Source: Metellina segmentata
Taxonomy: Eukaryota; Arthropoda; Arachnida; Araneae; Tetragnathidae
Length of the DNA stretch: 64,000 bases
Direction of reading: 5' to 3'
NCBI GenBank assembly: GCA_947359465.1
Contig: OX375883.1
Span: forward strand, 89,522,911 to 89,586,910
Shown here: piece by piece, positions 6,570 through 56,282 of the stretch
Layout of the letters: every line of letters begins with the position of its first letter
How positions within the stretch are numbered: the first letter of the stretch is position 1
Position numbers and translations under genes: made by a program
Notes under the pieces: model-generated
What the model was told of the DNA's origin: nothing
Databases searched by the model: none
What the model saw: the letters and a program-made list of their open reading frames with translations, nothing else

Positions 6570-6570
6570 G

Positions 6571-6727: not shown

Positions 6728-7206
6728 AAAGTACAGAAGAGCTGTTTACCAAACAAGCGTGTTGGTTTTGACATTTCTGGAAATTCATATACTGCCTTCC
6801 ACATGTCAAGAAGACCGTTATCAGTATTGAAGAATTTACTTAACCAGGACTGGAGCAAGTTGATTCTGCCTCCAGGTATGATCATTAATAATGTAACTAA
6901 AGATAATTGGTGTGACTGGGTTCCGTTCCATAAAAAAAAATGCAATCAGGCTTTTGGGTGTATTGGACTATCTACGTTTTTGCATATACGATATGCATGC
7001 TCATCAGTGGAATGGTAGCAGAACGCATGGATTTGCGCTATTATCTGACCCTTGGCAGGTTCTAAATGGTTTATTTACTATCTTTTTGGAATAGCCTATT
7101 ATTTAGAGATACACAACTTTACCTTCTTCGTTCTCGTTCAACTAATAGCAGACGTTTTTTTAATGTACAGAATCGCCCGGCGTGGTGTCGTGGTGCGTGT
7201 TAAATT

Positions 7207-7460
7207 GGATCGGCAAAGCTCGAAAATGACTCGTATTAGGCCTGTGGAACGCCCACATGTACGTAGGAAACATACCGGAGGCTTACGTAGCAGGACATTT
7301 TGTTGCACATAACTGAGGCTTACGTTTTATCATACCAGGTGCAGTTGTTTGCCTAGTTGGCTTTTTACTGTTTCTATTCCTCGCTCCTCACCCAGAAGAT
7401 GTTAATTTGGTTATCTCAAGTCACCATGCGACGCCAAAGAAATCATGGTCAGACATTTTC
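7207..7460 (+). repeat. First (left-edge) unit of the satellite
   Basis: This unit continues colinearly from the single-copy pseudogene and keeps ancestral bases that internal units have lost. It has GGATCGG rather than GGTTCGG at its start and ACGTAGG rather than ATGTAGG/ATGTGGG. Its Arg-Lys codons are followed by TGA and then the LVLGLWNAHMYVGN reading. From about 7270 onward it is almost identical to internal units. It marks the left boundary of homogenisation. Confidence 0.85.
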
Positions 7461-8877
7461 GGTTCGGCAAAGCTCGACGAGGACTCATATTCGGCCTGTG
7501 GAACGCCCACATGTATGTGGGAAACATACCGGAGGCTTACGTAGCAGGACATTTTGTTGCACATAACTGAGGCTTACGTTTTATCATACCAGGTGCAGTT
7601 GTTTGCCTAGTTGGCTTTTTACTGTTTCTATTCCTCGCTCCTCACCCAGAAGATGTTAATTTGGTTATCTCAAGTCACCATGCGACGCCAAAGAAATCAT
7701 GGTCAGACATTTTCGGTTCGGCAAAGCTCGACGAGGACTCATATTCGGCCTGTGGAACGCCCACATGTATGTGGGAAACATACCGGAGGCTTACGTAGCA
7801 GGACATTTTGTTGCACATAACTGAGGCTTACGTTTTATCATACCAGGTGCAGTTGTTTGCCTAGTTGGCTTTTTACTGTTTCTATTCCTCGCTCCTCACC
7901 CAGATGTTAATTTGGTTATCTCAAGTCACCATGCGACGCCAAAGAAATCATGGTCAGACATTTTCGGTTCGGCAAAGCTCGACGAGGACTCATATTCGGC
8001 CAGTGGAACGCCCACATGTATGTAGGAAACATACCGGAGGCTTACGTAGCAGGACATTTTGTTGCACATAACTGAGGCTTAGCTTTTATCATACCAGGTA
8101 CAGTTGTTTGCCTAGTTGGCTTTTTACTGTTTCTATTCCTCGCTCCTCACCCAGAAGATGTTAATTTGGTTATCTCAAGTCACCATGCGACGCCAAAGAA
8201 ATCATGGTCAGACATTTTCGGTTCGGCAAAGCTCGACGAGGACTCATATTCGGCCTGTGGAACGCCCACATGTATGTAGGAAACTTACCGGATTCTTACG
8301 TAGCAGGACATTTTGTTGCACATAACTGAGGCTTAGCTTTTATCATACCAGGTACAGTTGTTTGCCTAGTTGGCTTTTTACTGTTTCTATTCCTCGCTTC
8401 TCACCCAGAAGATGTTAATTTGGTTATCTCAAGTCACCATGCGACGCCAAAGAAATCATGGTCAGACATTTTCGGTTCGGCAAAGCTCGACGAGGACTCA
8501 TATTCGGCCTGTGGAACGCCCACATGTATGTAGGAAACATACCGGAGGCTTACGTAGCAGGACATTTTGTTGCACATAACTGAGGCTTACGTTTTATCAT
8601 ACCAGGTGCAGTTGTTTGCCTAGTTGGCTTTTTACTGTTTCTATTCCTCGCTCCTCACCCAGAAGATGTTAATTTGGTTATCTCAAGTCACCATGCGACG
8701 CCAAAGAAATCATGGTCGGACATTTTCAGTTCGACAAAGCTAGACGAGGACTCATATTCGGCCTGTGGAACGCCCACATGTATGTGGGAAACATACCGGA
8801 GGCTTACGTAGCAGGACATTTTGTTGCACATAACTGAGGCTTACGTTTTATCATACCAGGTGCAGTTGTTTGCCTAG

Positions 8878-10909
8878 TTGGCTTTTTACTGTTTCTATTC
8901 CTCGCTCCTCACCCAGAAGATGTTAATTTGGTTATCTCAAGTCACCATGCGACGCCAAAGAAATCATGGTCAGACATTTTCGGTTCGGCAAAGCTCGACG
9001 AGGACTCATATTCGGCCTGTGGAACGCCCACATGTATGTAGGAAACATACCGGATTCTTACGTAGCAGGACATTTAGTTGCACATAACTGAGGCTTACGT
9101 TTTATCATACCAGGTGCAGTTGTTTGCCTAGTTGGCTTTTTACTGTTTCTATTCCTCGCTCCTCACCCAGAAGATGTTAATTTGGTTATCTCAAGTCACC
9201 ATGCGACGCCAAAGAAATCATGGTCAGACATTTTCGGTTCGGCAAAGCTCGACGAGGACTCATATTCGGCCTGTGGAACGCCCACATGTATGTAGGAAAC
9301 ATACCGGAGGCTTACGTAGCAGGACATTTTGTTGCACATAACTGAGGCTTACGTTTTATCATACCAGGTGCAGTTGTTTGCCTAGTTGGCTTTTTACTGT
9401 TTCTATTCCTCGCTCCTCACCCAGAAGATGTTAATTTGGTTATCTCAAGTCACCATGCGACGCCAAAGAAATCATGGTCAGACATTTTCGGTTCGGCAAA
9501 GCTCGACGAGGACTCATATTCGGCCTGTGGAACGCCCACATGTATGTGGGAAACATACCGGAGGCTTACGTAGCAGGACATTTTGTTGCACATAACTGAG
9601 GCTTACGTTTTATCATACCAGGTGCAGTTGTTTGCCTAGTTGGCTTTTTACTGTTTCTATTCCTCGCTCCTCACCCAGAAGATGTTAATTTGGTTATCTC
9701 AAGTCACCATGCGACGCCAAAGAAATCATGGTCAGACATTTTCGGTTCGGCAAAGCTCGACGAGGACTCATATTCGGCCTGTGGAACGCCCACATGTATG
9801 TAGGAAACATACCGGAGGCTTACGTAGCAGGCCATTTTGTTGCACATAACTGAGGCTTAGCTTTTATCATACCAGGTACAGTTGTTTGCCTAGTTGGCTT
9901 TTTACTGTTTCTATTCCTCGCTCCTCACCCAGAAGATGTTAATTTGGTTATCTCAAGTCACCATGCGACGCCAAAGAAATCATGGTCAGACATTTTCGGT
10001 TCGGCAAAGCTCGACGAGGACTCATATTCGGCCTGTGGAACGCCCACATGTATGTAGGAAACATACCGGAGGCTTACGTAGCAGGACATTTTGTTGCACA
10101 TAACTGAGGCTTACGTTTTATCATACCAGGTGCAGTTGTTTGCCTAGTTGGCTTTTTACTGTTTCTATTCCTCGCTTCTCACCCAGAAGATGTTAATTTG
10201 GTTATCTCAAGTCACCATGCGACGCCAAAGAAATCATGGTCAGACATTTTCGGTTCGGCAAAGCTCGACGAGGACTAATATTCGGCCTGTGCAACGCCCA
10301 CATGTATGTAGGAAACATACCGGAGGCTTACGTAGCAGGACATTTTGTTGCACATAACTGAGGCTTACGTTTTATCATACCAGGTGCAGTTGTTTGCCTA
10401 GTTGGCTTTTTACTGTTTCTATTCCTCGCTCCTCACCCAGAAGATGTTAATTTGGTTATCTCAAGTCACCATGCGACGCCAAAGAAATCATGGTCAGACA
10501 TTTTCGGTTCGGCAAAGCTCGACGAGGACTCATATTCGGCCTGTGGAACGCCCACATGTATGTAGGAAACATACCGGAGGCTTACGTAGCAGGACATTTT
10601 GTTGCACATAACTGAGGCTTACGTTTTATCATACCAGGTGCAGTTGTTTGCCTAGTTGGCTTTTTACTGTTTCTATTCCTCGCTCCTCACCCAGAAGATG
10701 TTAATTTGGTTATCTCAAGTCACCATGCGACGCCAAAGAAATCATGGTCGGACATTTTCAGTTCGACAAAGCTAGACGAGGACTCATATTCGGCCTGTGG
10801 AACGCCCACATGTATGTGGGAAACATACCGGAGGCTTACGTAGCAGGACATTTTGTTGCACATAACTGAGGCTTACGTTTTATCATACCAGGTGCAGTTG
10901 TTTGCCTAG
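8878..10909 (+). repeat. 8-unit higher-order block, copy 1
   Basis: Eight units in a fixed order of variants. The first has GGATTCTTACG and a T-to-A change giving CATTTAGTTGC. The fourth has GGCCATTTTG. The sixth has GACTAATATT with TGCAACGCC. The last has ACATTTTCAGTTCGACAAAG. The same ordered block recurs at 20817-22848, 11,939 bp away. Confidence 0.85.
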
Positions 10910-13900
10910 TTGGCTTTTTACTGTTTCTATTCCTCGCTCCTCACCCAGAAGATGTTAATTTGGTTATCTCAAGTCACCATGCGACGCCAAAGAAATCATG
11001 GTCAGACATTTTCGGTTCGGCAAAGCTCGACGAGGACTCATATTCGGCCAGTGGAACGCCCACATGTATGTAGGAAACATACCGGAGGCTTACGTAGCAG
11101 GACATTTTGTTGCACATAACTGAGGCTTAGCTTTTATCATACCAGGTACAGTTGTTTGCCTAGTTGGCTTTTTACTGTTTCTATTCCTCGCTCCTCACCC
11201 AGAAGATGTTAATTTGGTTATCTCACGTCACCATGCGACGCCAAAGAAATCATGGTCAGACATTTTCGGTTCGGCAAAGCTCGACGAGGACTCATATTCG
11301 GCCTGTGGAACGCCCACATGTATGTAGGAAACATACCGGATTCTTACGTAGCAGGACATTTTGTTGCACATAACTGAGGCTTAGCTTTTATCATACCAGG
11401 TACAGTTGTTTGCCTAGTTGGCTTTTTACTGTTTCTATTCCTCGCTCCTCACCCAGAAGATGTTAATTTGGTTATCTCAAGTCACCATGCGACGCCAAAG
11501 AAATCATGGTCAGACATTTTCGGTTCGGCAAAGCTCGACGAGGACTCATATTCGGCCTGTGGAACGCCCACATGTATGTAGGAAACATACCGGAGGCTTA
11601 CGTAGCAGGACATTTTGTTGCACATAACTGAGGCTTACGTTTTATCATACCAGGTGCAGTTGTTTGCCTAGTTGGCTTTTTACTGTTTCTATTCCTCGCT
11701 CCTCACCCAGAAGATGTTAATTTGGTTATCTCAAGTCACCATGCGACGCCAAAGAAATCATGGTCAGACATTTTCGGTTCGGCAAAGCTCGACGAGGACT
11801 CATATTCGGCCTGTGGAACGCCCACATGTATGTAGGAAACATACCGGAGGCTTACGTAGCAGGACATTTTGTTGCACATAACTGAGGCTTACGTTTTATC
11901 ATACCAGGTGCAGTTGTTTGCCTAGTTGGCTTTTTACTGTTTCTATTCCTCGCTCCTCACCCAGAAGATGTTAATTTGGTTATCTCAAGTCACCATGCGA
12001 CGCCAAAGAAATCATGGTCAGACATTTTCGGTTCGGCAAAGCTCGACGAGGACTCATATTCGGCCTGTGGAACGCCCACATGTATGTAGGAAACATACCG
12101 GATTCTTACGTAGCAGGACATTTTGTTGCACATAACTGAGGCTTACGTTTTATCATACCAGGTGCAGTTGTTTGCCTAGTTGGATTTTTACTGTTTCTAT
12201 TCCTCGCTCCTCACCCAGAAGATGTTAATTTGGTTATCTCAAGTCACCATGCGACGCCAAAGAAATCATGGTCAGACATTTTCGGTTCGGCAAAGCTCGA
12301 CGAGGACTCATATTCGGCCTGTGGAACGCCCACATGTATGTAGGAAACATACCGGAGGCTTACGTAGCAGGACATTTTGTTGCACATAACTGAGGCTTAC
12401 GTTTTATCATACCAGGTGCAGTTGTTTGCCTAGTTGGCTTTTTACTGTTTCTATTCCTCGCTCCTCACCCAGAAGATGTTAATTTGGTTATCTCAAGTCA
12501 CCATGCGACGCCAAAGAAATCATGGTCAGACATTTTCGGTTCGGCAAAGCTCGACGAGGACTCATATTCGGCCTGTGGAACGCCCACATGTATGTGGGAA
12601 ACATACCGGAGGCTTACGTAGCAGGACATTTTGTTGCACATAACTGAGGCTTACGTTTTATCATACCAGGTGCAGTTGTTTGCCTAGTTGGCTTTTTACT
12701 GTTTCTATTCCTCGCTCCTCACCCAGAAGATGTTAATTTGGTTATCTCAAGTCACCATGCGACGCCAAAGAAATCATGGTCAGACATTTTCGGTTCGGCA
12801 AAGCTCGACGAGGACTCATATTCGGCCTGTGGAACGCCCACATGTATGTAGGAAACATACCGGAGGCTTACGTAGCAGGCCATTTTGTTGCACATAACTG
12901 AGGCTTACGTTTTATCATACCAGGTGCAGTTGTTTGCCTAGTTGGCTTTTTACTGTTTCTATTCCTCGCTCCTCACCCAGAAGATGTTAATTTGGTTATC
13001 TCAAGTCACCATGCGACGCCAAAGAAATCATGGTCAGACATTTTCGGTTCGGCAAAGCTCGACGAGGACTCATATTCGGCCTGTGGAACGCCCACATGTA
13101 TGTGGGAAACATACCGGAGGCTTACGTAGCAGGACATTTTGTTGCACATAACTGAGGCTTACGTTTTATCATACCAGGTGCAGTTGTTTGCCTAGTTGGC
13201 TTTTTACTGTTTCTATTCCTCGCTCCTCACCCAGAAGATGTTAATTTGGTTATCTCAAGTCACCATGCGACGCCAAAGAAATCATGGTCAGACATTTTCG
13301 GTTCGGCAAAGCTCGACGAGGACTCATATTCGGCCAGTGGAACGCCCACATGTATGTAGGAAACATACCGGAGGCTTACGTAGCAGGACATTTTGTTGCA
13401 CATAACTGAGGCTTAGCTTTTATCATACCAGGTACAGTTGTTTGCCTAGTTGGCTTTTTACTGTTTCTATTCCTCGCTCCTCACCCAGAAGATGTTAATT
13501 TGGTTATCTCAAGTCACCATGCGACGCCAAAGAAATCATGGTCAGACATTTTCGGTTCGGCAAAGCTCGACGAGGACTCATATTCGGCCTGTGGAACGCC
13601 CACATGTATGTAGGAAACATACCGGATTCTTACGTAGCAGGACATTTTGTTGCACATAACTGAGGCTTAGCTTTTATCATACCAGGTACAGTTGTTTGCC
13701 TAGTTGGCTTTTTACTGTTTCTATTCCTCGCTCCTCACCCAGAAGATGTTAATTTGGTTATCTCAAGTCACCATGCGACGCCAAAGAAATCATGGTCAGA
13801 CATTTTCGGTTCGGCAAAGCTCGACGAGGACTCATATTCGGCCTGTGGAACGCCCACATGTATGTAGGAAACATACCGGAGGCTTACGTAGCAGGACATT

Positions 13901-15990
13901 TTGTTGCACATAACTGAGGCTTACGTTTTATCATACCAGGTGCAGTTGTTTGCCTAGTTGGCTTTTTACTGTTTCTATTCCTCGCTCCTCACCCAGAAGA
14001 TGTTAATTTGGTTATCTCAAGTCACCATGCGACGCCAAAGAAATCATGGTCAGACATTTTCGGTTCGGCAAAGCTCGACGAGGACTCATATTCGGCCTGT
14101 GGAACGCCCACATGTATGTAGGAAACATACCGGAGGCTTACGTAGCAGGCCATTTTGTTGCACATAACTGAGGCTTACGTTTTATCATACCAGGTGCAGT
14201 TGTTTGCCTAGTTGGCTTTTTACTGTTTCTATTCCTCGCTCCTCACCCAGAAGATGTTAATTTGGTTATCTCAAGTCACCATGCGACGCCAAAGAAATCA
14301 TGGTCAGACATTTTCGGTTCGGCAAAGCTCGACGAGGACTCATATTCGGCCTGTGGAACGCCCACATGTATGTGGGAAACATACCGGAGGCTTACGTAGC
14401 AGGACATTTTGTTGCACATAACTGAGGCTTACGTTTTATCATACCAGGTGCAGTTGTTTGCCTAGTTGGCTTTTTACTGTTTCTATTCCTCGCTCCTCAC
14501 CCAGAAGATGTTAATTTGGTTATCTCAAGTCACCATGCGACGCCAAAGAAATCATGGTCAGACATTTTCGGTTCGGCAAAGCTCGACGAGGACTCATATT
14601 CGGCCTGTGGAACGCCCACATGTATGTAGGAAACATACCGGAGGCTTACGTAGCAGGCCATTTTGTTGCACATAACTGAGGCTTAGCTTTTATCATACCA
14701 GGTACAGTTGTTTGCCTAGTTGGCCTTTTTACTGTTTCTATTCCTCGCTCCTCACCCAGAAGATGTTAATTTGGTTATCTCAAGTCACCATGCGACGCCA
14801 AAGAAATCATGGTCAGACATTTTCGGTTCGGCAAAGCTCGACGAGGACTCATATTCGGCCTGTGGAACGCCCACATGTATGTAGGAAACATACCGGAGGC
14901 TTACGTAGCAGGACATTTTGTTGCACATAACTGAGGCTTACGTTTTATCATACCAGGTGCAGTTGTTTGCCTAGTTGGCTTTTTACTGTTTCTATTCCTC
15001 GCTTCTCACCCAGAAGATGTTAATTTGGTTATCTCAAGTCACCATGCGACGCCAAAGAAATCATGGTCAGACATTTTCGGTTCGGCAAAGCTCGACGAGG
15101 ACTAATATTCGGCCTGTGCAACGCCCACATGTATGTAGGAAACATACCGGAGGCTTACGTAGCAGGACATTTTGTTGCACATAACTGAGGCTTACGTTTT
15201 ATCATACCAGGTGCAGTTGTTTGCCTAGTTGGCTTTTTACTGTTTCTATTCCTCGCTCCTCACCCAGAAGATGTTAATTTGGTTATCTCAAGTCACCATG
15301 CGACGCCAAAGAAATCATGGTCAGACATTTTCGGTTCGGCAAAGCTCGACGAGGACTCATATTCGGCCTGTGGAACGCCCACATGTATGTAGGAAACATA
15401 CCGGAGGCTTACGTAGCAGGACATTTTGTTGCACATAACTGAGGCTTACGTTTTATCATACCAGGTGCAGTTGTTTGCCTAGTTGGCTTTTTACTGTTTC
15501 TATTCCTCGCTTCTCACCCAGAAGATGTTAATTTGGTTATCTCAAGTCACCATGCGACGCCAAAGAAATCATGGTCAGACATTTTCGGTTCGGCAAAGCT
15601 CGACGAGGACTAATATTCGGCCTGTGCAACGCCCACATGTATGTAGGAAACATACCGGAGGCTTACGTAGCAGGACATTTTGTTGCACATAACTGAGGCT
15701 TACGTTTTATCATACCAGGTGCAGTTGTTTGCCTAGTTGGCTTTTTACTGTTTCTATTCCTCGCTCCTCACCCAGAAGATGTTAATTTGGTTATCTCAAG
15801 TCACCATGCGACGCCAAAGAAATCATGGTCGGACATTTTCAGTTCGACAAAGCTAGACGAGGACTCATATTCGGCCTGTGGAACGCCCACATGTATGTGG
15901 GAAACATACCGGAGGCTTACGTAGCAGGACATTTTGTTGCACATAACTGAGGCTTACGTTTTATCATACCAGGTGCAGTTGTTTGCCTAG
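10910..15990 (+). repeat. 20-unit higher-order block, copy 1
   Basis: Twenty units. It begins with a unit carrying CGGCCAGTGG and ends with a unit carrying TTTTCAGTTCGACAAAG. The order of GGATTC, ATGTGGG, GGCCATTTT and GACTAATATT variants is matched by the block at 32501-37580, apart from one unit lost and one gained. It includes the single 1-bp insertion of the array near 14726. Confidence 0.8.
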
Positions 15991-18900
15991 TTGGCTTTTT
16001 ACTGTTTTTATTCCTCGCTCCTCACCCAGAAGATGTTAATTTGGTTATCTCAAGTCACCATGCGACGCCAAAGAAATCATGGTCAGACATTTTCGGTTCG
16101 GCAAAGCTCGACGAGGACTCATATTCGGCCAGTGGAACGCCCACATGTATGTAGGAAACATACCGGAGGCTTACGTAGCAGGACATTTTGTTGCACATAA
16201 CTGAGGCTTAGCTTTTATCATACCAGGTACAGTTGTTTGCCTAGTTGGCTTTTTACTGTTTCTATTCCTCGCTCCTCACCCAGAAGATGTTAATTTGGTT
16301 ATCTCAAGTCACCATGCGACGCCAAAGAAATCATGGTCAGACATTTTCGGTTCGGCAAAGCTCGACGAGGACTCATATTCGGCCTGTGGAACGCCCACAT
16401 GTATGTAGGAAACATACCGGATTCTTACGTAGCAGGACATTTTGTTGCACATAACTGAGGCTTAGCTTTTATCATACCAGGTACAGTTGTTTGCCTAGTT
16501 GGCTTTTTACTGTTTCTATTCCTCGCTCCTCACCCAGAAGATGTTAATTTGGTTATCTCAAGTCACCATGCGACGCCAAAGAAATCATGGTCAGACATTT
16601 TCGGTTCGGCAAAGCTCGACGAGGACTCATATTCGGCCTGTGGAACGCCCACATGTATGTAGGAAACATACCGGAGGCTTACGTAGCAGGACATTTTGTT
16701 GCACATAACTGAGGCTTACGTTTTATCATACCAGGTGCAGTTGTTTGCCTAGTTGGCTTTTTACTGTTTCTATTCCTCGCTCCTCACCCAGAAGATGTTA
16801 ATTTGGTTATCTCAAGTCACCATGCGACGCCAAAGAAATCATGGTCAGACATTTTCGGTTCGGCAAAGCTCGACGAGGACTCATATTCGGCCTGTGGAAC
16901 GCCCACATGTATGTAGGAAACATACCGGAGGCTTACGTAGCAGGACATTTTGTTGCACATAACTGAGGCTTACGTTTTATCATACCAGGTGCAGTTGTTT
17001 GCCTAGTTGGCTTTTTACTGTTTCTATTCCTCGCTCCTCACCCAGAAGATGTTAATTTGGTTATCTCAAGTCACCATGCGACGCCAAAGAAATCATGGTC
17101 AGACATTTTCGGTTCGGCAAAGCTCGACGAGGACTCATATTCGGCCTGTGGAACGCCCACATGTATGTAGGAAACATACCGGATTCTTACGTAGCAGGAC
17201 ATTTTGTTGCACATAACTGAGGCTTACGTTTTATCATACCAGGTGCAGTTGTTTGCCTAGTTGGCTTTTTACTGTTTCTATTCCTCGCTCCTCACCCAGA
17301 AGATGTTAATTTGGTTATCTCAAGTCACCATGCGACGCCAAAGAAATCATGGTCAGACATTTTCGGTTCGGCAAAGCTCGACGAGGACTCATATTCGGCC
17401 TGTGGAACGCCCACATGTATGTAGGAAACATACCGGAGGCTTACGTAGCAGGACATTTTGTTGCACATAACTGAGGCTTACGTTTTATCATACCAGGTGC
17501 AGTTGTTTGCCTAGTTGGCTTTTTACTGTTTGTATTCCTCGCTCCTCACCCAGAAGATGTTAATTTGGTTATCTCAAGTCACCATGCGACGCCAAAGAAA
17601 TCATGGTCAGACATTTTCGGTTCGGCAAAGCTCGACGAGGACTCATATTCGGCCTGTGGAACGCCCACATGTATGTGGGAAACATACCGGAGGCTTACGT
17701 AGCAGGACATTTTGTTGCATATAACTGAGGCTTACGTTTTATCATACCAGGTGCAGTTGTTTGCCTAGTTGGCTTTTTACTGTTTCTATTCCTCGCTCCT
17801 CACCCAGAAGATGTTAATTTGGTTATCTCAAGTCACCATGCGACGCCAAAGAAATCATGGTCAGACATTTTCGGTTCGGCAAAGCTCGACGAGGACTCAT
17901 ATTCGGCCTGTGGAACGCCCACATGTATGTAGGAAACATACCGGAGGCTTACGTAGCAGGCCATTTTGTTGCACATAACTGAGGCTTAGCTTTTATCATA
18001 CCAGGTACAGTTGTTTGCCTAGTTGGCTTTTTACTGTTTCTATTCCTCGCTCCTCACCCAGAAGATGTTAATTTGGTTATCTCAAGTCACCATGCGATGC
18101 CAAAGAAATCATGGTCAGACATTTTCGGTTCGGCAAAGCTCGACGAGGACTCATATTCGGCCTGTGGAACGCCCACATGTATGTAGGAAACATACCGGAG
18201 GCTTACGTAGCAGGACATTTTGTTGCACATAACTGAGGCTTACGTTTTATCATACCAGGTGCAGTTGTTTGCCTAGTTGGCTTTTTACTGTTTCTATTCC
18301 TCGCTTCTCACCCAGAAGATGTTAATTTGGTTATCTCAAGTCACCATGCGACGCCAAAGAAATCATGGTCAGACATTTTCGGTTCGGCAAAGCTCGACGA
18401 GGACTAATATTCGGCCTGTGCAACGCCCACATGTATGTAGGAAACATACCGGAGGCTTACGTAGCAGGACATTTTGTTGCACATAACTGAGGCTTACGTT
18501 TTATCATACCAGGTGCAGTTGTTTGCCTAGTTGGCTTTTTACTGTTTCTATTCCTCGCTCCTCACCCAGAAGATGTTAATTTGGTTATCTCAAGTCACCA
18601 TGCGACGCCAAAGAAATCATGGTCAGACATTTTCGGTTCGGCAAAGCTCGACGAGGACTCATATTCGGCCTGTGGAACGCCCACATGTATGTAGGAAACA
18701 TACCGGAGGCTTACGTAGCAGGACATTTTGTTGCACATAACTGAGGCTTACGTTTTATCATACCAGGTGCAGTTGTTTGCCTAGTTGGCTTTTTACTGTT
18801 TCTATTCCTCGCTCCTCACCCAGAAGATGTTAATTTGGTTATCTCAAGTCACCATGCGACGCCAAAGAAATCATGGTCGGACATTTTCAGTTCGACAAAG

Positions 18901-19038
18901 CTAGACGAGGACTCATATTCGGCCTGTGGAACGCCCACATGTATGTGGGAAACATACCGGAGGCTTACGTAGCAGGACATTTTGTTGCACATAACTGAGG
19001 CTTACGTTTTATCATACCAGGTGCAGTTGTTTGCCTAG
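15991..19038 (+). repeat. 12-unit higher-order block, copy 1
   Basis: Twelve units, 3,048 bp. Diagnostic marks are GTTTTTATTCC in unit 1, GTTTGTATTCC in unit 7, GGCCATTTT in unit 8, GCGATGCC in unit 9, GACTAATATT in unit 10 and TTCAGTTCGAC in unit 12. The block recurs at 29453-32500 and 37581-40628 with nearly the same marks. Confidence 0.9.
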
Positions 19039-20816
19039 TTGGCTTTTTACTGTTTCTATTCCTCGCTCCTCACCCAGAAGATGTTAATTTGGTTATCTCA
19101 AGTCACCATGCGACGCCAAAGAAATCATGGTCAGACATTTTCGGTTCGGCAAAGCTCGACGAGGACTCATATTCGGCCAGTGGAACGCCCACATGTATGT
19201 AGGAAACATACCGGAGGCTTACGTAGCAGGACATTTTGTTGCACATAACTGAGGCTTAGCTTTTATCATACCAGGTACAGTTGTTTGCCTAGTTGGCTTT
19301 TTACTGTTTCTATTCCTCGCTCCTCACCCAGAAGATGTTAATTTGGTTATCTCAAGTCACCATGCGACGCCAAAGAAATCATGGTCAGACATTTTCGGTT
19401 CGGCAAAGCTCGACGAGGACTCATATTCGGCCTGTGGAACGCCCACATGTATGTAGGAAACATACCGGATTCTTACGTAGCAGGACATTTTGTTGCACAT
19501 AACTGAGGCTTAGCTTTTATCATACCAGGTACAGTTGTTTGCCTAGTTGGCTTTTTACTGTTTCTATTCCTCGCTCCTCACCCAGAAGATGTTAATTTGG
19601 TTATCTCAAGTCACCATGCGACGCCAAAGAAATCATGGTCAGACATTTTCGGTTCGGCAAAGCTCGACGAGGACTCATATTCGGCCTGTGGAACGCCCAC
19701 ATGTATGTAGGAAACATACCGGAGGCTTACGTAGCAGGACATTTTGTTGCACATAACTGAGGCTTACGTTTTATCATACCAGGTGCAGTTGTTTGCCTAG
19801 TTGGCTTTTTACTGTTTCTATTCCTCGCTCCTCACCCAGAAGATGTTAATTTGGTTATCTCAAGTCACCATGCGACGCCAAAGAAATCATGGTCAGACAT
19901 TTTCGGTTCGGCAAAGCTCGACGAGGACTCATATTCGGCCTGTGGAACGCCCACATGTATGTAGGAAACATACCGGAGGCTTACGTAGCAGGACATTTTG
20001 TTGCACATAACTGAGGCTTACGTTTTATCATACCAGGTGCAGTTGTTTGCCTAGTTGGCTTTTTACTGTTTCTATTCCTCGCTCCTCACCCAGAAGATGT
20101 TAATTTGGTTATCTCAAGTCACCATGCGACGCCAAAGAAATCATGGTCAGACATTTTCGGTTCGGCAAAGCTCGACGAGGACTCATATTCGGCCTGTGGA
20201 ACGCCCACATGTATGTAGGAAACATACCGGATTCTTACGTAGCAGGACATTTTGTTGCACATAACTGAGGCTTACGTTTTATCATACCAGGTGCAGTTGT
20301 TTGCCTAGTTGGCTTTTTACTGTTTCTATTCCTCGCTCCTCACCCAGAAGATGTTAATTTGGTTATCTCAAGTCACCATGCGACGCCAAAGAAATCATGG
20401 TCAGACATTTTCGGTTCGGCAAAGCTCGACGAGGACTCATATTCGGCCTGTGGAACGCCCACATGTATGTAGGAAACATACCGGAGGCTTACGTAGCAGG
20501 ACATTTTGTTGCACATAACTGAGGCTTACGTTTTATCATACCAGGTGCAGTTGTTTGCCTAGTTGGCTTTTTACTGTTTCTATTCCTCGCTCCTCACCCA
20601 GAAGATGTTAATTTGGTTATCTCAAGTCACCATGCGACGCCAAAGAAATCATGGTCGGACATTTTCAGTTCGACAAAGCTAGACGAGGACTCATATTCGG
20701 CCTGTGGAACGCCCACATGTATGTGGGAAACATACCGGAGGCTTACGTAGCAGGACATTTTGTTGCACATAACTGAGGCTTACGTTTTATCATACCAGGT
20801 GCAGTTGTTTGCCTAG
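19039..20816 (+). repeat. 7-unit higher-order block
   Basis: Seven units. The first six match the opening six units of the 12- and 20-unit blocks, and the block closes with the TTCAGTTCGAC unit. A shortened version, missing three units, precedes the first 8-unit block (7865-8877 in the same phase). Confidence 0.75.
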
Positions 20817-28800: not shown

Positions 28801-29452
28801 GCAAAGCTCGACGAGGACTCATATTCGGCCTGTGGAACGCCCACATGTATGTAGGAAACATACCGGAGGCTTACGTAGCAGGACATTTTGTTGCACATAA
28901 CTGAGGCTTACGTTTTATCATACCAGGTGCAGTTGTTTGCCTAGTTGGCTTTTTACTGTTTCTATTCCTCGCTTCTCACCCAGAAGATGTTAATTTGGTT
29001 ATCTCAAGTCACCATGCGACGCCAAAGAAATCATGGTCAGACATTTTCGGTTCGGCAAAGCTCGACGAGGACTAATATTCGGCCTGTGCAACGCCCACAT
29101 GTATGTAGGAAACATACCGGAGGCTTACGTAGCAGGACATTTTGTTGCACATAACTGAGGCTTACGTTTTATCATACCAGGTGCAGTTGTTTGCCTAGTT
29201 GGCTTTTTACTGTTTCTATTCCTCGCTCCTCACCCAGAAGATGTTAATTTGGTTATCTCAAGTCACCATGCGACGCCAAAGAAATCATGGTCGGACATTT
29301 TCAGTTCGACAAAGCTAGACGAGGACTCATATTCGGCCTGTGGAACGCCCACATGTATGTGGGAAACATACCGGAGGCTTACGTAGCAGGACATTTTGTT
29401 GCACATAACTGAGGCTTACGTTTTATCATACCAGGTGCAGTTGTTTGCCTAG
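22849..29452 (+). repeat. 26-unit higher-order block (expanded 20-unit block)
   Basis: The first 15 units follow the order of the 20-unit block. The later part carries an added run in which the GACTAATATT unit appears four times and the ATGTGGG/GGCCATTTT pair once more. It closes with the TTCAGTTCGAC unit. It reads as a 20-unit block enlarged by an internal duplication. Confidence 0.75.
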
Positions 29453-32400
29453 TTGGCTTTTTACTGTTTTTATTCCTCGCTCCTCACCCAGAAGATGTTA
29501 ATTTGGTTATCTCAAGTCACCATGCGACGCCAAAGAAATCATGGTCAGACATTTTCGGTTCGGCAAAGCTCGACGAGGACTCATATTCGGCCAGTGGAAC
29601 GCCCACATGTATGTAGGAAACATACCGGAGGCTTACGTAGCAGGACATTTTGTTGCACATAACTGAGGCTTAGCTTTTATCATACCAGGTACAGTTGTTT
29701 GCCTAGTTGGCTTTTTACTGTTTCTATTCCTCGCTCCTCACCCAGAAGATGTTAATTTGGTTATCTCAAGTCACCATGCGACGCCAAAGAAATCATGGTC
29801 AGACATTTTCGGTTCGGCAAAGCTCGACGAGGACTCATATTCGGCCTGTGGAACGCCCACATGTATGTAGGAAACATACCGGATTCTTACGTAGCAGGAC
29901 ATTTTGTTGCACATAACTGAGGCTTAGCTTTTATCATACCAGGTACAGTTGTTTGCCTAGTTGGCTTTTTACTGTTTCTATTCCTCGCTCCTCACCCAGA
30001 AGATGTTAATTTGGTTATCTCAAGTCACCATGCGACGCCAAAGAAATCATGGTCAGACATTTTCGGTTCGGCAAAGCTCGACGAGGACTCATATTCGGCC
30101 TGTGGAACGCCCACATGTATGTAGGAAACATACCGGAGGCTTACGTAGCAGGACATTTTGTTGCACATAACTGAGGCTTACGTTTTATCATACCAGGTGC
30201 AGTTGTTTGCCTAGTTGGCTTTTTACTGTTTCTATTCCTCGCTCCTCACCCAGAAGATGTTAATTTGGTTATCTCAAGTCACCATGCGACGCCAAAGAAA
30301 TCATGGTCAGACATTTTCGGTTCGGCAAAGCTCGACGAGGACTCATATTCGGCCTGTGGAACGCCCACATGTATGTAGGAAACATACCGGAGGCTTACGT
30401 AGCAGGACATTTTGTTGCACATAACTGAGGCTTACGTTTTATCATACCAGGTGCAGTTGTTTGCCTAGTTGGCTTTTTACTGTTTCTATTCCTCGCTCCT
30501 CACCCAGAAGATGTTAATTTGGTTATCTCAAGTCACCATGCGACGCCAAAGAAATCATGGTCAGACATTTTCGGTTCGGCAAAGCTCGACGAGGACTCAT
30601 ATTCGGCCTGTGGAACGCCCACATGTATGTAGGAAACATACCGGATTCTTACGTAGCAGGACATTTTGTTGCACATAACTGAGGCTTACGTTTTATCATA
30701 CCAGGTGCAGTTGTTTGCCTAGTTGGCTTTTTACTGTTTCTATTCCTCGCTCCTCACCCAGAAGATGTTAATTTGGTTATCTCAAGTCACCATGCGACGC
30801 CAAAGAAATCATGGTCAGACATTTTCGGTTCGGCAAAGCTCGACGAGGACTCATATTCGGCCTGTGGAACGCCCACATGTATGTAGGAAACATACCGGAG
30901 GCTTACGTAGCAGGACATTTTGTTGCACATAACTGAGGCTTACGTTTTATCATACCAGGTGCAGTTGTTTGCCTAGTTGGCTTTTTACTGTTTGTATTCC
31001 TCGCTCCTCACCCAGAAGATGTTAATTTGGTTATCTCAAGTCACCATGCGACGCCAAAGAAATCATGGTCAGACATTTTCGGTTCGGCAAAGCTCGACGA
31101 GGACTCATATTCGGCCTGTGGAACGCCCACATGTATGTGGGAAACATACCGGAGGCTTACGTAGCAGGACATTTTGTTGCACATAACTGAGGCTTACGTT
31201 TTATCATACCAGGTGCAGTTGTTTGCCTAGTTGGCTTTTTACTGTTTCTATTCCTCGCTCCTCACCCAGAAGATGTTAATTTGGTTATCTCAAGTCACCA
31301 TGCGACGCCAAAGAAATCATGGTCAGACATTTTCGGTTCGGCAAAGCTCGACGAGGACTCATATTCGGCCTGTGGAACGCCCACATGTATGTAGGAAACA
31401 TACCGGAGGCTTACGTAGCAGGCCATTTTGTTGCACATAACTGAGGCTTAGCTTTTATCATACCAGGTACAGTTGTTTGCCTAGTTGGCTTTTTACTGTT
31501 TCTATTCCTCGCTCCTCACCCAGAAGATGTTAATTTGGTTATCTCAAGTCACCATGCGATGCCAAAGAAATCATGGTCAGACATTTTCGGTTCGGCAAAG
31601 CTCGACGAGGACTCATATTCGGCCTGTGGAACGCCCACATGTATGTAGGAAACATACCGGAGGCTTACGTAGCAGGACATTTTGTTGCACATAACTGAGG
31701 CTTACGTTTTATCATACCAGGTGCAGTTGTTTGCCTAGTTGGCTTTTTACTGTTTCTATTCCTCGCTTCTCACCCAGAAGATGTTAATTTGGTTATCTCA
31801 AGTCACCATGCGACGCCAAAGAAATCATGGTCAGACATTTTCGGTTCGGCAAAGCTCGACGAGGACTAATATTCGGCCTGTGCAACGCCCACATGTATGT
31901 AGGAAACATACCGGAGGCTTACGTAGCAGGACATTTTGTTGCACATAACTGAGGCTTACGTTTTATCATACCAGGTGCAGTTGTTTGCCTAGTTGGCTTT
32001 TTACTGTTTCTATTCCTCGCTCCTCACCCAGAAGATGTTAATTTGGTTATCTCAAGTCACCATGCGACGCCAAAGAAATCATGGTCAGACATTTTCGGTT
32101 CGGCAAAGCTCGACGAGGACTCATATTCGGCCTGTGGAACGCCCACATGTATGTAGGAAACATACCGGAGGCTTACGTAGCAGGACATTTTGTTGCACAT
32201 AACTGAGGCTTACGTTTTATCATACCAGGTGCAGTTGTTTGCCTAGTTGGCTTTTTACTGTTTCTATTCCTCGCTCCTCACCCAGAAGATGTTAATTTGG
32301 TTATCTCAAGTCACCATGCGACGCCAAAGAAATCATGGTCGGACATTTTCAGTTCGACAAAGCTAGACGAGGACTCATATTCGGCCTGTGGAACGCCCAC

Positions 32401-32500
32401 ATGTATGTGGGAAACATACCGGAGGCTTACGTAGCAGGACATTTTGTTGCACATAACTGAGGCTTACGTTTTATCATACCAGGTGCAGTTGTTTGCCTAG
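29453..32500 (+). repeat. 12-unit higher-order block, copy 2
   Basis: Carries the same private marks as the first 12-unit block: GTTTTTATTCC, GTTTGTATTCC and GCGATGCC in units 1, 7 and 9. It lies exactly 53 units (13,462 bp) downstream of copy 1. Confidence 0.9.
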
Positions 32501-35500
32501 TTGGCTTTTTACTGTTTCTATTCCTCGCTCCTCACCCAGAAGATGTTAATTTGGTTATCTCAAGTCACCATGCGACGCCAAAGAAATCATGGTCAGACAT
32601 TTTCGGTTCGGCAAAGCTCGACGAGGACTCATATTCGGCCAGTGGAACGCCCACATGTATGTAGGAAACATACCGGAGGCTTACGTAGCAGGACATTTTG
32701 TTGCACATAACTGAGGCTTAGCTTTTATCATACCAGGTACAGTTGTTTGCCTAGTTGGCTTTTTACTGTTTCTATTCCTCGCTCCTCACCCAGAAGATGT
32801 TAATTTGGTTATCTCAAGTCACCATGCGACGCCAAAGAAATCATGGTCAGACATTTTCGGTTCGGCAAAGCTCGACGAGGACTCATATTCGGCCTGTGGA
32901 ACGCCCACATGTATGTAGGAAACATACCGGATTCTTACGTAGCAGGACATTTTGTTGCACATAACTGAGGCTTACGTTTTATCATACCAGGTGCAGTTGT
33001 TTGCCTAGTTGGCTTTTTACTGTTTCTATTCCTCGCTCCTCACCCAGAAGATGTTAATTTGGTTATCTCAAGTCACCATGCGACGCCAAAGAAATCATGG
33101 TCAGACATTTTCGGTTCGGCAAAGCTCGACGAGGACTCATATTCGGCCTGTGGAACGCCCACATGTATGTAGGAAACATACCGGAGGCTTACGTAGCAGG
33201 ACATTTTGTTGCACATAACTGAGGCTTACGTTTTATCATACCAGATGCAGTTGTTTGCCTAGTTGGCTTTTTACTGTTTCTATTCCTCGCTCCTCACCCA
33301 GAAGATGTTAATTTGGTTATCTCAAGTCACCATGCGACGCCAAAGAAATCATGGTCAGACATTTTCGGTTCGGCAAAGCTCGACGAGGACTCATATTCGG
33401 CCTGTGGAACGCCCACATGTATGTAGGAAACATACCGGATTCTTACGTAGCAGGACATTTTGTTGCACATAACTGAGGCTTACGTTTTATCATACCAGGT
33501 GCAGTTGTTTGCCTAGTTGGCTTTTTACTGTTTCTATTCCTCGCTCCTCACCCAGAAGATGTTAATTTGGTTATCTCAAGTCACCATGCGACGCCAAAGA
33601 AATCATGGTCAGACATTTTCGGTTCGGCAAAGCTCGACGAGGACTCATATTCGGCCTGTGGAACGCCCACATGTATGTAGGAAACATACCGGAGGCTTAC
33701 GTAGCAGGACATTTTGTTGCACATAACTGAGGCTTACGTTTTATCATACCAGGTGCAGTTGTTTGCCTAGTTGGCTTTTTACTGTTTCTATTCCTCGCTC
33801 CTCACCCAGAAGATGTTAATTTGGTTATCTCAAGTCACCATGCGACGCCAAAGAAATCATGGTCAGACATTTTCGGTTCGGCAAAGCTCGACGAGGACTC
33901 ATATTCGGCCTGTGGAACGCCCACATGTATGTGGGAAACATACCGGAGGCTTACGTAGCAGGACATTTTGTTGCACATAACTGAGGCTTACGTTTTATCA
34001 TACCAGGTGCAGTTGTTTGCCTAGTTGGCTTTTTACTGTTTCTATTCCTCGCTCCTCACCCAGAAGATGTTAATTTGGTTATCTCAAGTCACCATGCGAC
34101 GCCAAAGAAATCATGGTCAGACATTTTCGGTTCGGCAAAGCTCGACGAGGACTCATATTCGGCCTGTGGAACGCCCACATGTATGTAGGAAACATACCGG
34201 AGGCTTACGTAGCAGGCCATTTTGTTGCACATAACTGAGGCTTACGTTTTATCATACCAGGTGCAGTTGTTTGCCTAGTTGGCTTTTTACTGTTTCTATT
34301 CCTCGCTCCTCACCCAGAAGATGTTAATTTGGTTATCTCAAGTCACCATGCGACGCCAAAGAAATCATGGTCAGACATTTTCGGTTCGGCAAAGCTCGAC
34401 GAGGACTCATATTCGGCCTGTGGAACGCCCACATGTATGTGGGAAACATACCGGAGGCTTACGTAGCAGGACATTTTGTTGCACATAACTGAGGCTTACG
34501 TTTTATCATACCAGGTGCAGTTGTTTGCCTAGTTGGCTTTTTACTGTTTCTATTCCTCGCTCCTCACCCAGAAGATGTTAATTTGGTTATCTCAAGTCAC
34601 CATGCGACGCCAAAGAAATCATGGTCAGACATTTTCGGTTCGGCAAAGCTCGACGAGGACTCATATTCGGCCAGTGGAACGCCCACATGTATGTAGGAAA
34701 CATACCGGAGGCTTACGTAGCAGGACATTTTGTTGCACATAACTGAGGCTTAGCTTTTATCATACCAGGTACAGTTGTTTGCCTAGTTGGCTTTTTACTG
34801 TTTCTATTCCTCGCTCCTCACCCAGAAGATGTTAATTTGGTTATCTCAAGTCACCATGCGACGCCAAAGAAATCATGGTCAGACATTTTCGGTTCGGCAA
34901 AGCTCGACGAGGACTCATATTCGGCCTGTGGAACGCCCACATGTATGTAGGAAACATACCGGATTCTTACGTAGCAGGACATTTTGTTGCACATAACTGA
35001 GGCTTAGCTTTTATCATACCAGGTACAGTTGTTTGCCTAGTTGGCTTTTTACTGTTTCTATTCCTCGCTCCTCACCCAGAAGATGTTAATTTGGTTATCT
35101 CAAGTCACCATGCGACGCCAAAGAAATCATGGTCAGACATTTTCGGTTCGGCAAAGCTCGACGAGGACTCATATTCGGCCTGTGGAACGCCCACATGTAT
35201 GTAGGAAACATACCGGAGGCTTACGTAGCAGGACATTTTGTTGCACATAACTGAGGCTTACGTTTTATCATACCAGGTGCAGTTGTTTGCCTAGTTGGCT
35301 TTTTACTGTTTCTATTCCTCGCTCCTCACCCAGAAGATGTTAATTTGGTTATCTCAAGTCACCATGCGACGCCAAAGAAATCATGGTCAGACATTTTCGG
35401 TTCGGCAAAGCTCGACGAGGACTCATATTCGGCCTGTGGAACGCCCACATGTATGTAGGAAACATACCGGAGGCTTACGTAGCAGGCCATTTTGTTGCAC

Positions 35501-37580
35501 ATAACTGAGGCTTACGTTTTATCATACCAGGTGCAGTTGTTTGCCTAGTTGGCTTTTTACTGTTTCTATTCCTCGCTCCTCACCCAGAAGATGTTAATTT
35601 GGTTATCTCAAGTCACCATGCGACGCCAAAGAAATCATGGTCAGACATTTTCGGTTCGGCAAAGCTCGACGAGGACTCATATTCGGCCTGTGGAACGCCC
35701 ACATGTATGTGGGAAACATACCGGAGGCTTACGTAGCAGGACATTTTGTTGCACATAACTGAGGCTTACGTTTTATCATACCAGGTGCAGTTGTTTGCCT
35801 AGTTGGCTTTTTACTGTTTCTATTCCTCGCTCCTCACCCAGAAGATGTTAATTTGGTTATCTCAAGTCACCATGCGACGCCAAAGAAATCATGGTCAGAC
35901 ATTTTCGGTTCGGCAAAGCTCGACGAGGACTCATATTCGGCCTGTGGAACGCCCACATGTATGTAGGAAACATACCGGAGGCTTACGTAGCAGGCCATTT
36001 TGTTGCACATAACTGAGGCTTAGCTTTTATCATACCAGGTACAGTTGTTTGCCTAGTTGGCTTTTTACTGTTTCTATTCCTCGCTCCTCACCCAGAAGAT
36101 GTTAATTTGGTTATCTCAAGTCACCATGCGACGCCAAAGAAATCATGGTCAGACATTTTCGGTTCGGCAAAGCTCGACGAGGACTCATATTCGGCCTGTG
36201 GAACGCCCACATGTATGTAGGAAACATACCGGAGGCTTACGTAGCAGGACATTTTGTTGCACATAACTGAGGCTTACGTTTTATCATACCAGGTGCAGTT
36301 GTTTGCCTAGTTGGCTTTTTACTGTTTCTATTCCTCGCTTCTCACCCAGAAGATGTTAATTTGGTTATCTCAAGTCACCATGCGACGCCAAAGAAATCAT
36401 GGTCAGACATTTTCGGTTCGGCAAAGCTCGACGAGGACTAATATTCGGCCTGTGCAACGCCCACATGTATGTAGGAAACATACCGGAGGCTTACGTAGCA
36501 GGACATTTTGTTGCACATAACTGAGGCTTACGTTTTATCATACCAGGTGCAGTTGTTTGCCTAGTTGGCTTTTTACTGTTTCTATTCCTCGCTCCTCACC
36601 CAGAAGATGTTAATTTGGTTATCTCAAGTCACCATGCGACGCCAAAGAAATCATGGTCAGACATTTTCGGTTCGGCAAAGCTCGACGAGGACTCATATTC
36701 GGCCTGTGGAACGCCCACATGTATGTAGGAAACATACCGGAGGCTTACGTAGCAGGACATTTTGTTGCACATAACTGAGGCTTACGTTTTATCATACCAG
36801 GTGCAGTTGTTTGCCTAGTTGGCTTTTTACTGTTTCTATTCCTCGCTTCTCACCCAGAAGATGTTAATTTGGTTATCTCAAGTCACCATGCGACGCCAAA
36901 GAAATCATGGTCAGACATTTTCGGTTCGGCAAAGCTCGACGAGGACTAATATTCGGCCTGTGCAACGCCCACATGTATGTAGGAAACATACCGGAGGCTT
37001 ACGTAGCAGGACATTTTGTTGCACATAACTGAGGCTTACGTTTTATCATACCAGGTGCAGTTGTTTGCCTAGTTGGCTTTTTACTGTTTCTATTCCTCGC
37101 TCCACACCCAGAAGATGTTAATTTGGTTATCTCAAGTCACCATGCGACGCCAAAGAAATCATGGTCAGACATTTTCGGTTCGGCAAAGCTCGACGAGGAC
37201 TCATATTCGGCCTGTGGAACGCCCACATGTATGTAGGAAACATACCGGAGGCTTACGTAGCAGGACATTTTGTTGCACATAACTGAGGCTTACGTTTTAT
37301 CATACCAGGTGCAGTTGCTTGCCTAGTTGGCTTTTTACTGTTTCTATTCCTCGCTCCTCACCCAGAAGATGTTAATTTGGTTATCTCAAGTCACCATGCG
37401 ACGCCAAAGAAATCATGGTCGGACATTTTCAGATCGACAAAGCTAGACGAGGACTCATATTCGGCCTGTGGAACGCCCACATGTATGTGGGAAACATACC
37501 GGAGGCTTACGTAGCAGGACATTTTGTTGCACATAACTGAGGCTTACGTTTTATCATACCAGGTGCAGTTGTTTGCCTAG
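32501..37580 (+). repeat. 20-unit higher-order block, copy 2
   Basis: Follows the 20-unit order with one early unit lost and one late unit gained. The last unit has TTTTCAGATCGACAAAG, where GATCG matches the ancestral left-edge sequence better than other internal units do. Confidence 0.75.
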
Positions 37581-40500
37581 TTGGCTTTTTACTGTTTTTA
37601 TTCCTCGCTCCTCACCCAGAAGATGTTAATTTGGTTATCTCAAGTCACCATGCGACGCCAAAGAAATCATGGTCAGACATTTTCGGTTCGGCAAAGCTCG
37701 ACGAGGACTCATATTCGGCCAGTGGAACGCCCACATGTATGTAGGAAACATACCGGAGGCTTACGTAGCAGGACATTTTGTTGCACATAACTGAGGCTTA
37801 GCTTTTATCATACCAGGTACAGTTGTTTGCCTAGTTGGCTTTTTACTGTTTCTATTCCTCGCTCCTCACCCAGAAGATGTTAATTTGGTTATCTCAAGTC
37901 ACCATGCGACGCCAAAGAAATCATGGTCAGACATTTTCGGTTCGGCAAAGCTCGACGAGGACTCATATTCGGCCTGTGGAACGCCCACATGTATGTAGGA
38001 AACATACCGGATTCTTACGTAGCAGGACATTTTGTTGCACATAACTGAGGCTTAGCTTTTATCATACCAGGTACAGTTGTTTGCCTAGTTGGCTTTTTAC
38101 TGTTTCTATTCCTCGCTCCTCACCCAGAAGATGTTAATTTGGTTATCTCAAGTCACCATGCGACGCCAAAGAAATCATGGTCAGACATTTTCGGTTCGGC
38201 AAAGCTCGACGAGGACTCATATTCGGCCTGTGGAACGCCCACATGTATGTAGGAAACATACCGGAGGCTTACGTAGCAGGACATTTTGTTGCACATAACT
38301 GAGGCTTACGTTTTATCATACCAGGTGCAGTTGTTTGCCTAGTTGGCTTTTTACTGTTTCTATTCCTCGCTCCTCACCCAGAAGATGTTAATTTGGTTAT
38401 CTCAAGTCACCATGCGACGCCAAAGAAATCATGGTCAGACATTTTCGGTTCGGCAAAGCTCGACGAGGACTCATATTCGGCCTGTGGAACGCCCACATGT
38501 ATGTAGGAAACATACCGGAGGCTTACGTAGCAGGACATTTTGTTGCACATAACTGAGGCTTACGTTTTATCATACCAGGTGCAGTTGTTTGCCTAGTTGG
38601 CTTTTTACTGTTTCTATTCCTCGCTCCTCACCCAGAAGATGTTAATTTGGTTATCTCAAGTCACCATGCGACGCCAAAGAAATCATGGTCAGACATTTTC
38701 GGTTCGGCAAAGCTCGACGAGGACTCATATTCGGCCTGTGGAACGCCCACATGTATGTAGGAAACATACCGGATTCTTACGTAGCAGGACATTTTGTTGC
38801 ACATAACTGAGGCTTACGTTTTATCATACCAGGTGCAGTTGTTTGCCTAGTTGGCTTTTTACTGTTTCTATTCCTCGCTCCTCACCCAGAAGATGTTAAT
38901 TTGGTTATCTCAAGTCACCATGCGACGCCAAAGAAATCATGGTCAGACATTTTCGGTTCGGCAAAGCTCGACGAGGACTCATATTCGGCCTGTGGAACGC
39001 CCACATGTATGTAGGAAACATACCGGAGGCTTACGTAGCAGGACATTTTGTTGCACATAACTGAGGCTTACGTTTTATCATACCAGGTGCAGTTGTTTGC
39101 CTAGTTGGCTTTTTACTGTTTGTATTCCTCGCTCCTCACCCAGAAGATGTTAATTTGGTTATCTCAAGTCACCATGCGACGCCAAAGAAATCATGGTCAG
39201 ACATTTTCGGTTCGGCAAAGCTCGACGAGGACTCATATTCGGCCTGTGGAACGCCCACATGTATGTGGGAAACATACCGGAGGCTTACGTAGCAGGACAT
39301 TTTGTTGCACATAACTGAGGCTTACGTTTTATCATACCAGGTGCAGTTGTTTGCCTAGTTGGCTTTTTACTGTTTCTATTCCTCGCTCCTCACCCAGAAG
39401 ATGTTAATTTGGTTATCTCAAGTCACCATGCGACGCCAAAGAAATCATGGTCAGACATTTTCGGTTCGGCAAAGCTCGACGAGGACTCATATTCGGCCTG
39501 TGGAACGCCCACATGTATGTAGGAAACATACCGGAGGCTTACGTAGCAGGCCATTTTGTTGCACATAACTGAGGCTTAGCTTTTATCATACCAGGTACAG
39601 TTGTTTGCCTAGTTGGCTTTTTACTGTTTCTATTCCTCGCTCCTCACCCAGAAGATGTTAATTTGGTTATCTCAAGTCACCATGCGACGCCAAAGAAATC
39701 ATGGTCAGACATTTTCGGTTCGGCAAAGCTCGACGAGGACTCATATTCGGCCTGTGGAACGCCCACATGTATGTAGGAAACATACCGGAGGCTTACGTAG
39801 CAGGACATTTTGTTGCACATAACTGAGGCTTACGTTTTATCATACCAGGTGCAGTTGTTTGCCTAGTTGGCTTTTTACTGTTTCTATTCCTCGCTTCTCA
39901 CCCAGAAGATGTTAATTTGGTTATCTCAAGTCACCATGCGACGCCAAAGAAATCATGGTCAGACATTTTCGGTTCGGCAAAGCTCGACGAGGACTAATAT
40001 TCGGCCTGTGCAACGCCCACATGTATGTAGGAAACATACCGGAGGCTTACGTAGCAGGACATTTTGTTGCACATAACTGAGGCTTACGTTTTATCATACC
40101 AGGTGCAGTTGTTTGCCTAGTTGGCTTTTTACTGTTTCTATTCCTCGCTCCTCACCCAGAAGATGTTAATTTGGTTATCTCAAGTCACCATGCGACGCCA
40201 AAGAAATCATGGTCAGACATTTTCGGTTCGGCAAAGCTCGACGAGGACTCATATTCGGCCTGTGGAACGCCCACATGTATGTAGGAAACATACCGGAGGC
40301 TTACGTAGCAGGACATTTTGTTGCACATAACTGAGGCTTACGTTTTATCATACCAGGTGCAGTTGTTTGCCTAGTTGGCTTTTTACTGTTTCTATTCCTC
40401 GCTCCTCACCCAGAAGATGTTAATTTGGTTATCTCAAGTCACCATGCGACGCCAAAGAAATCATGGTCGGACATTTTCAGTTCGACAAAGCTAGACGAGG

Positions 40501-40628
40501 ACTCATATTCGGCCTGTGGAACGCCCACATGTATGTAGGAAACATACTGGAGGCTTACGTCGCAGGACATTTTGTTGCACATAACTGAGGCTTAGCTTTT
40601 ATCCTACCAGGTGCAGTTGTTTGCCTAG
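37581..40628 (+). repeat. 12-unit higher-order block, copy 3
   Basis: Same order as the other 12-unit blocks, with GTTTTTATTCC and GTTTGTATTCC in units 1 and 7, but without the GCGATGCC change in unit 9. Its last unit passes into the right edge and picks up extra differences, such as ATACTGGAGG and TACGTCGCAGG. Confidence 0.88.
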
Positions 40629-40732
40629 TTGGCTTTTTGCTGTTTCTATTCCTTGCTCCTCACCCAGAAGATGTTAATTTGGTTATTTCAAGTAACAATG
40701 CCACGCCAAAGAAACCATCGTCGGACATTTTC
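40479..40732 (+). repeat. Last (right-edge) unit of the satellite
   Basis: The first half resembles internal units. The second half departs from them, with TTGCTGTTTC, CCTTGCTCC, AGTAACAATGCC and AAACCATCGTCGG. It then runs without a break into single-copy pseudogene sequence (TLNGNGAHTKYD in the ancestral frame). It retains the pre-amplification state, in which SSNNATPKKPSSDIF is read in place of the internal SSHHATPKKSWSDIF. Confidence 0.85.
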
Positions 40733-40845
40733 ACTCTCAACGGAAATGGAGCTCATACGAAGTATGATCTAATTATAGAGGTCGAAAAGAGTAATATAGA
40801 AGAAAGAGCACCTTTGAAAGCAAAAATCACTGGTAATTTTAGTTA

Positions 40846-56011: not shown

Positions 56012-56282
56012 TTTTAATAAATACTACAATAAAAAAAACATACAAAATGTATATTTCAATAAATAAATACCATTCAAGATATGAAAGTTAAATTGTAATT
56101 TTTCTATTATGTAGTTATTTTACTTGGGGGTTCATGGTCAGGTTTTTGCTATAAGTAGGGGTCCTTAGACATACTAAGTTTGGGAACCACTGTTCTAGAG
56201 GATCCCTCCTTTTGTTCGGTACCCAACCATGTCGACCGTGAGGTGTGAACGCTTTGGAGGAAATGCATAAGGTCGCTCTGGT

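Follow-up and report, generated by a model that had tools for sequence, protein, structure and literature searches.

The window, by which we mean the whole 64,000-nucleotide stretch of Metellina segmentata DNA that was analyzed, lies on the contig here called C11 and holds one tandem array within an otherwise single-copy pseudogene of SLC37A2 type (Table 1). TRF reports this one array with a period of 254, 132.0 copies and 98% matches over window positions 7210-40732, and a cut at a fixed anchor yields 132 head-to-tail units, a number that comes from one assembly, without reads, and could be off. Both results bear out the count of 132 units in an earlier note on this DNA; the 254-bp period given there also stands, and its start at 7207 moves by one base because unit 1 begins at 7208. 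Unit length is 254 bp in 130 of the 132 units, 251 in u3 and 255 in u30, and only the last of these is a multiple of 3. Any two of units 1-131 differ on average by 3.85 bases (1.5%), and 562 of the 8515 pairs are identical.

The unit corresponds to residues 180-264 of an SLC37A2-type transporter, numbered in the protein of an intact paralog on contig C13. The right flank of the array matched the SLC37A2 structure 9ucm_A in the PDB (E 2.3e-33), and a search of the spider's own genome with the C13 ORF returned three pieces in the window with gene order kept. Against Pfam MFS_1, the unit and the right-flank fragment each scored 17.9 bits, under the cut-off of 33.4. The earlier note had taken the unit for SLC37 coding sequence, with an SLC37 gene matching on the flanks and colinear across both edges of the array, at unit 1 and at unit 132. 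The 9ucm_A match and the C13-ORF pieces support the identity of both unit and flanks, and the DNA alignment with the single-copy C13 locus agrees with the colinearity.

Table 1. Features of the array, its pseudogene flanks and neighboring elements (window positions)
Feature	Position	Strand	Observation or method
C13-colinear segment, interrupted by array and insertions	1049-48941	+	blastn between 60 kb of C13 and 124 kb of array-masked C11
Upstream sequence, C13-homologous	5879-6569	+	75/651 aligned bases differ
124-bp inverted copy of C-terminal coding part, near former start codon	6570-6693	-	92.7% to C13, 87.1% to right flank in window
Match to C13-ORF residues 12-264	6696-7463		own-genome protein search
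N-terminal part of single-copy pseudogene, continuing into unit 1, with a stop and frameshifting gaps	6714-7207	+	46/484 bases differ from C13
Tandem array, 132 x 254 bp, SLC37A2 residues 180-264	7208-40733	+	TRF, unit cut and protein search
Unit 1; 7 private-type differences from consensus, 6 in first 31 bp	7208-7461	+	unit alignment
Unit 132; 17 differences from consensus, 9 = C13 state, 8 derived	40480-40733	+	unit alignment
Match to C13-ORF residues 180-297	40481-40834		own-genome protein search
Single-copy pseudogene leaving unit 132	40734-40832	+	12/99 bases differ from C13
Dispersed repeat of ~280 bp, SINE-like by form, in pseudogene	40833-41114	.	missing from C13 gene; another C13 repeat matches at 92%
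C-terminal part of single-copy pseudogene, with two stops and with 11- and 34-base gaps relative to C13	41115-41812	+	58/696 bases differ (41115-41815)
Match to C13-ORF residues 378-526	41363-41809		own-genome protein search
3' noncoding sequence, C13-homologous	41816-43242	+	192/1318 aligned bases differ

The locus has two of the attributes of a satellite, a long head-to-tail array of similar units and noncoding sequence (a stop codon stands in every unit), and lacks another, presence at numerous loci or in a sizeable fraction of the genome, as one array was seen (80 of 163 candidates scored in the C13-ORF search; common words skipped in the unit search). Judged by its sequence, such a single-locus array is a nascent satellite, and the word "satellite" is generous for 33.5 kb, or ~0.002% of the 1.665 Gb assembly. 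With regard to a heterochromatic or centromeric location, a further attribute of satellites, the unit consensus contains no CENP-B-box-like core within 2 mismatches; nor does it contain inverted repeats of at least 8 bases. It carries an 11-bp direct repeat (columns 71-81 and 108-118) that is absent from C13, and a change at columns 116-118 makes the second copy resemble the first, as a local template switch would.

The intact paralog and the decayed copy

A genome search with one unit gave a match at C13:63949166-63949419; this search skips very common words, and the array itself is therefore not among its matches. At the C13 locus the unit is present exactly once in a colinear context, and the intronless coding sequence reads through 538 codons without a stop. 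The whole C13 gene matched 9ucm_A with an E value of 2.4e-150, and the best named full-length matches to its ORF are spider proteins with 72-80% identity (Larinioides 80%, Trichonephila 78%, Oedothorax 78%, Stegodyphus 76%, Uloborus 74% and Parasteatoda 72%), so that a full-length ORF with orthologs marks it as a gene. The segment colinear with the window spans about 12.3 kb of C13; dispersed repeats make up part of its outermost pieces, which leaves the ends uncertain. When the right flank of the array was used as a DNA query, three matches were obtained (all 3 candidates scored), namely itself, C13 and the inverted piece at 6570-6693. By sequence, the C13 segment is paralogous to the window and shows independently what the locus was like before it expanded.

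Two origins are conceivable for the C13 gene: it could be native, with a single coding exon, or a retrogene. The TTTACAG directly before its ATG, which resembles an acceptor site, leans toward the native gene, and the C13 reverse complement showed no poly(A) tract between 11640 and 13700. C13 departs from the spider orthologs at 10 invariant columns, which suggests that its constraint may be somewhat relaxed.

The two copies, with unit 66 representing the unit in the window, differ at 75 amino acid positions, which we scored against 7 spider orthologs. The orthologs have only the C13 residue in 55 cases, only the window residue in 1, both in 11 and neither in 8; four of the 75 differences are stops in the window. 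At columns invariant among the orthologs, C13 keeps 298 of 308 residues and the window 247 of 295, and the window copy also carries frameshifting gaps relative to C13. With SLC37A2 homology and these disabling changes, the window copy reads as a dead SLC37A2-type pseudogene and the C13 copy as intact. A TGA stop in the gene frame is common to 132 of 132 units where C13 has TGG, and the gene was therefore probably dead before amplification, with the proviso that homogenization might have carried the TGA into unit 132 secondarily.

Differences from C13 amount to 9.4% for u66 and 9.1% for u132, compared with 9.5% in the flanking coding sequence on the left and 12.1% and 8.3% on the right. Noncoding sequence differs more, by 11.5% upstream and 14.6% downstream. 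The unit has thus diverged about as far as its flanks, as would be expected if its origin was local.

Edge units, junctions and block structure

The two ends of the array depart from the consensus in different ways. None of the 7 differences of unit 1 is C13-like, and their crowding indicates that its first 31 bp are outside the homogenized part, at the left edge of the zone. Unit 132 shares 15 changes from C13 with the array majority, and retains the C13 state at 9 majority-derived sites, 5 of which are derived in 131 of the 131 other units. One of the 9, column 255, is the junction base, where the C13 counterpart is the first right-flank base. At 8 further sites unit 132 is itself derived, and 6 of these states occur in no other unit. 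In a tree, unrooted and with the bootstrap not fully settled, C13 and unit 132 are split from the other 31 distinct rows by a branch with support of 99/96. From the retained C13 states and the tree, unit 132 seems to be an early copy that has survived and avoided homogenization, and by its differences it is outside the homogenized part of the array.

The junctions between units fall into two haplotypes (columns 245, 255 | 6, 14), found at 121 and 10 of 131 junctions with no recombinants, and the u131|u132 junction carries the rarer one. We also looked for microhomology at the first junction by comparing C13 on both sides with the junctions, and rejected it, as no bases were in common.

Within the array, 22 runs of 6-21 consecutive units recur with 0-0.25% difference, the runs being limited by construction to at most one mismatch per unit. 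In one example, u28-48 match u81-101 with 4 mismatches. The longest exactly identical run covers 10 units (u6-15 and u53-62), compared with 2-4 in 20 shuffles of unit order. Unit identity is elevated only at lags 12, 32, 38, 47 and 53 and block runs occur at many lags, on which grounds a simple higher-order repeat of fixed period was rejected. Such distant repeats of consecutive units with few differences are the mark of recent multi-unit block growth. In Arabidopsis centromeres, in-frame indels of 1-31 monomers are described and break-induced replication is discussed (PMC12321929), and the block sizes of 6-21 found here fall within that range. Sequence alone does not separate break-induced replication from unequal exchange in the present case.

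Origin of the array and related systems

The history that very probably accounts for these observations is a segmental duplication followed by gene death, a tandem duplication of 254 bp, divergence and block expansion, all in place. What it builds on can be seen directly in the sequence: the colinearity, the one C13 unit, the stop common to all units, the C13 states retained by unit 132 and the block repeats. A segment with an SLC37A2-type gene, its coding sequence free of introns, would have been duplicated, the copies now lying on contigs C13 and C11; the gene would have stayed intact on C13 and died on C11. Within the dead gene, a stretch of 254 bp would then have been doubled head to tail, with no microhomology at the join. 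The resulting two units presumably diverged, and one would persist nearly unhomogenized as unit 132, while the other lineage may have given rise to ~131 units through in-register, multi-unit, homology-driven duplication. Such duplication, by unequal exchange or break-induced replication, would also have homogenized the array. The order of events, the type of recombination and the neutrality of the process are what we infer.

Jukes-Cantor distances between the segmental copies are 0.162 (0.139-0.187) in the 3' noncoding sequence and 0.125 upstream, and that between unit 132 and the array consensus is 0.070 (0.041-0.113); for comparison, units 2-131 differ by a mean of 1.5% and the recent blocks by 0-0.25%. 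As relative times these values are rough, and conversion would make the later dates too young. The earlier note had the array growing in place from one copy, and the one-unit state of C13, the colinear flanks and the match between unit and flank divergence all favor this. Counting against the proposed history is the inverted piece at 6570-6693, perhaps a template-switch insertion, which indicates that the locus has been rearranged by other means too. Given the C13 paralog, the stop that all units share and the ancestral character of unit 132, what was a plausible story is now well supported, and the earlier reading proves right on its essentials.

Colinear flanks and units in register would look alike had the piece been amplified outside the chromosome, by rolling-circle copying of an excised circle, and re-integrated by homology into the pseudogene. 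We consider this unlikely: the nested blocks at many lags and divergences, and the two junction haplotypes spread along the array, point to repeated in-place events rather than one burst, and re-integration is argued to be likely much rarer than excision in a discussion of satellite evolution (PMC12321929).

Near-identical tandem units are hard to assemble, and with one assembly and no reads the array might be largely an artefact, or its copy number badly wrong. The scattered private variants, the length variants u3 and u30, the consistent block structure and the passage of both array edges into single-copy sequence make this very improbable.

In Drosophila, Su(Ste)/Stellate comprises tandem, gene-derived copies that are ~90% like an active gene. 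The units here are likewise tandem and gene-derived; they share ~90% identity with the C13 gene and a single orientation. By analogy, the dead copy might regulate its living paralog, the ~131 near-identical units feeding small RNAs against C13 SLC37A2 as in Su(Ste)/Stellate, and array length would then tune the C13 transporter; we give this a very small chance. That the array has been kept for a function, such as small RNAs acting on the C13 gene, appears less likely still, as Rfam yielded no match.

Hardly credible is a pre-existing dispersed satellite that inserted into the gene and matches SLC37 incidentally, for although the unit search skips very common words and cannot prove dispersed copies absent, the gene reading continues through the unit on both sides and one copy sits in place in the intact C13 gene. 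On the same grounds we rejected a foreign satellite insertion. An older dispersed satellite, which the earlier note named as something that would refute its reading, gains no support: the listed C13-ORF matches (80 of 163 candidates scored) lie within the window or the C13 gene, and genome-wide dispersal of the unit is unlikely.

In-place growth from a pseudogene can be set beside several known systems. In a general model outlined in PMC12692304, satellite DNA arises by tandem duplication and then amplification; a single tandem duplication, array growth, homogenization and a block-like higher-order structure are common to that model and this locus, and the present case differs in involving one locus only and in retaining its single-copy source, the first junction and an unexpanded paralog that is intact. 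The human macrosatellite D4Z4, whose DUX4 has been called a retrotransposed gene (PMC2965761) and whose units are 3.3 kb long (PMC13138017), is similar in that the array unit derives from a gene copy. Each D4Z4 unit holds the gene, whereas the unit described here is a 254-bp internal piece with a stop, and the retro-origin of its source is only putative. The exon arrays within LPA, NBPF and DMBT1 (PMC2588610) are likewise tandem repeats of a coding-sequence piece, but their units are exons or protein domains, unlike a 254-bp unit that is not a multiple of 3 and has a stop in every copy. Satellites seeded by transposons or rDNA spacers (PMC5615363) also start from a known sequence class; here the seed is protein-coding sequence of a pseudogene at one locus, and was not first dispersed. 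Our literature search turned up neither this locus nor a satellite from a coding fragment with an intact unexpanded paralog, which does not prove that none has been described.

On the first tandem duplication and the sequence sources of satellites, a 2025 review states, transposon-derived cases excepted, that "in general we do not know" (PMC12321929). The present locus is one where source, first junction, oldest surviving unit and unexpanded paralog can all be read, and the order of death, one duplication, divergence and block growth becomes testable in individuals and in related spiders. It is also a case of local growth from one locus, as opposed to the dissemination before clustering that has been argued for the locust (PMC4935994). 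Theory leads one to expect events of this kind; what is unusual is how complete the record is.

Other elements in the window

The ~280-bp repeat within the pseudogene is bounded by an imperfect 13-bp target-site duplication and, by its absence from the C13 gene, is an insertion later than the segmental duplication. It also occurs at ~56282-56562 and beyond the window, and its relatives are numerous in the compared stretches of C13 (60 kb) and C11 (124 kb). An ORF of 429 amino acids (44395-45684), with DUF5641, an integrase zinc-binding domain and a sub-threshold integrase core, sits between stretches that adjoin on C13; we take it to be BEL/Pao-like. A 157-amino acid ORF on the reverse strand (46812-47285), with no Pfam family at E 0.001, presumably resembles a mariner-type transposase. 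TRF also reports a second tandem repeat at 60817-61575, short and diverged, with a period of 286, 2.7 copies and 74% matches.
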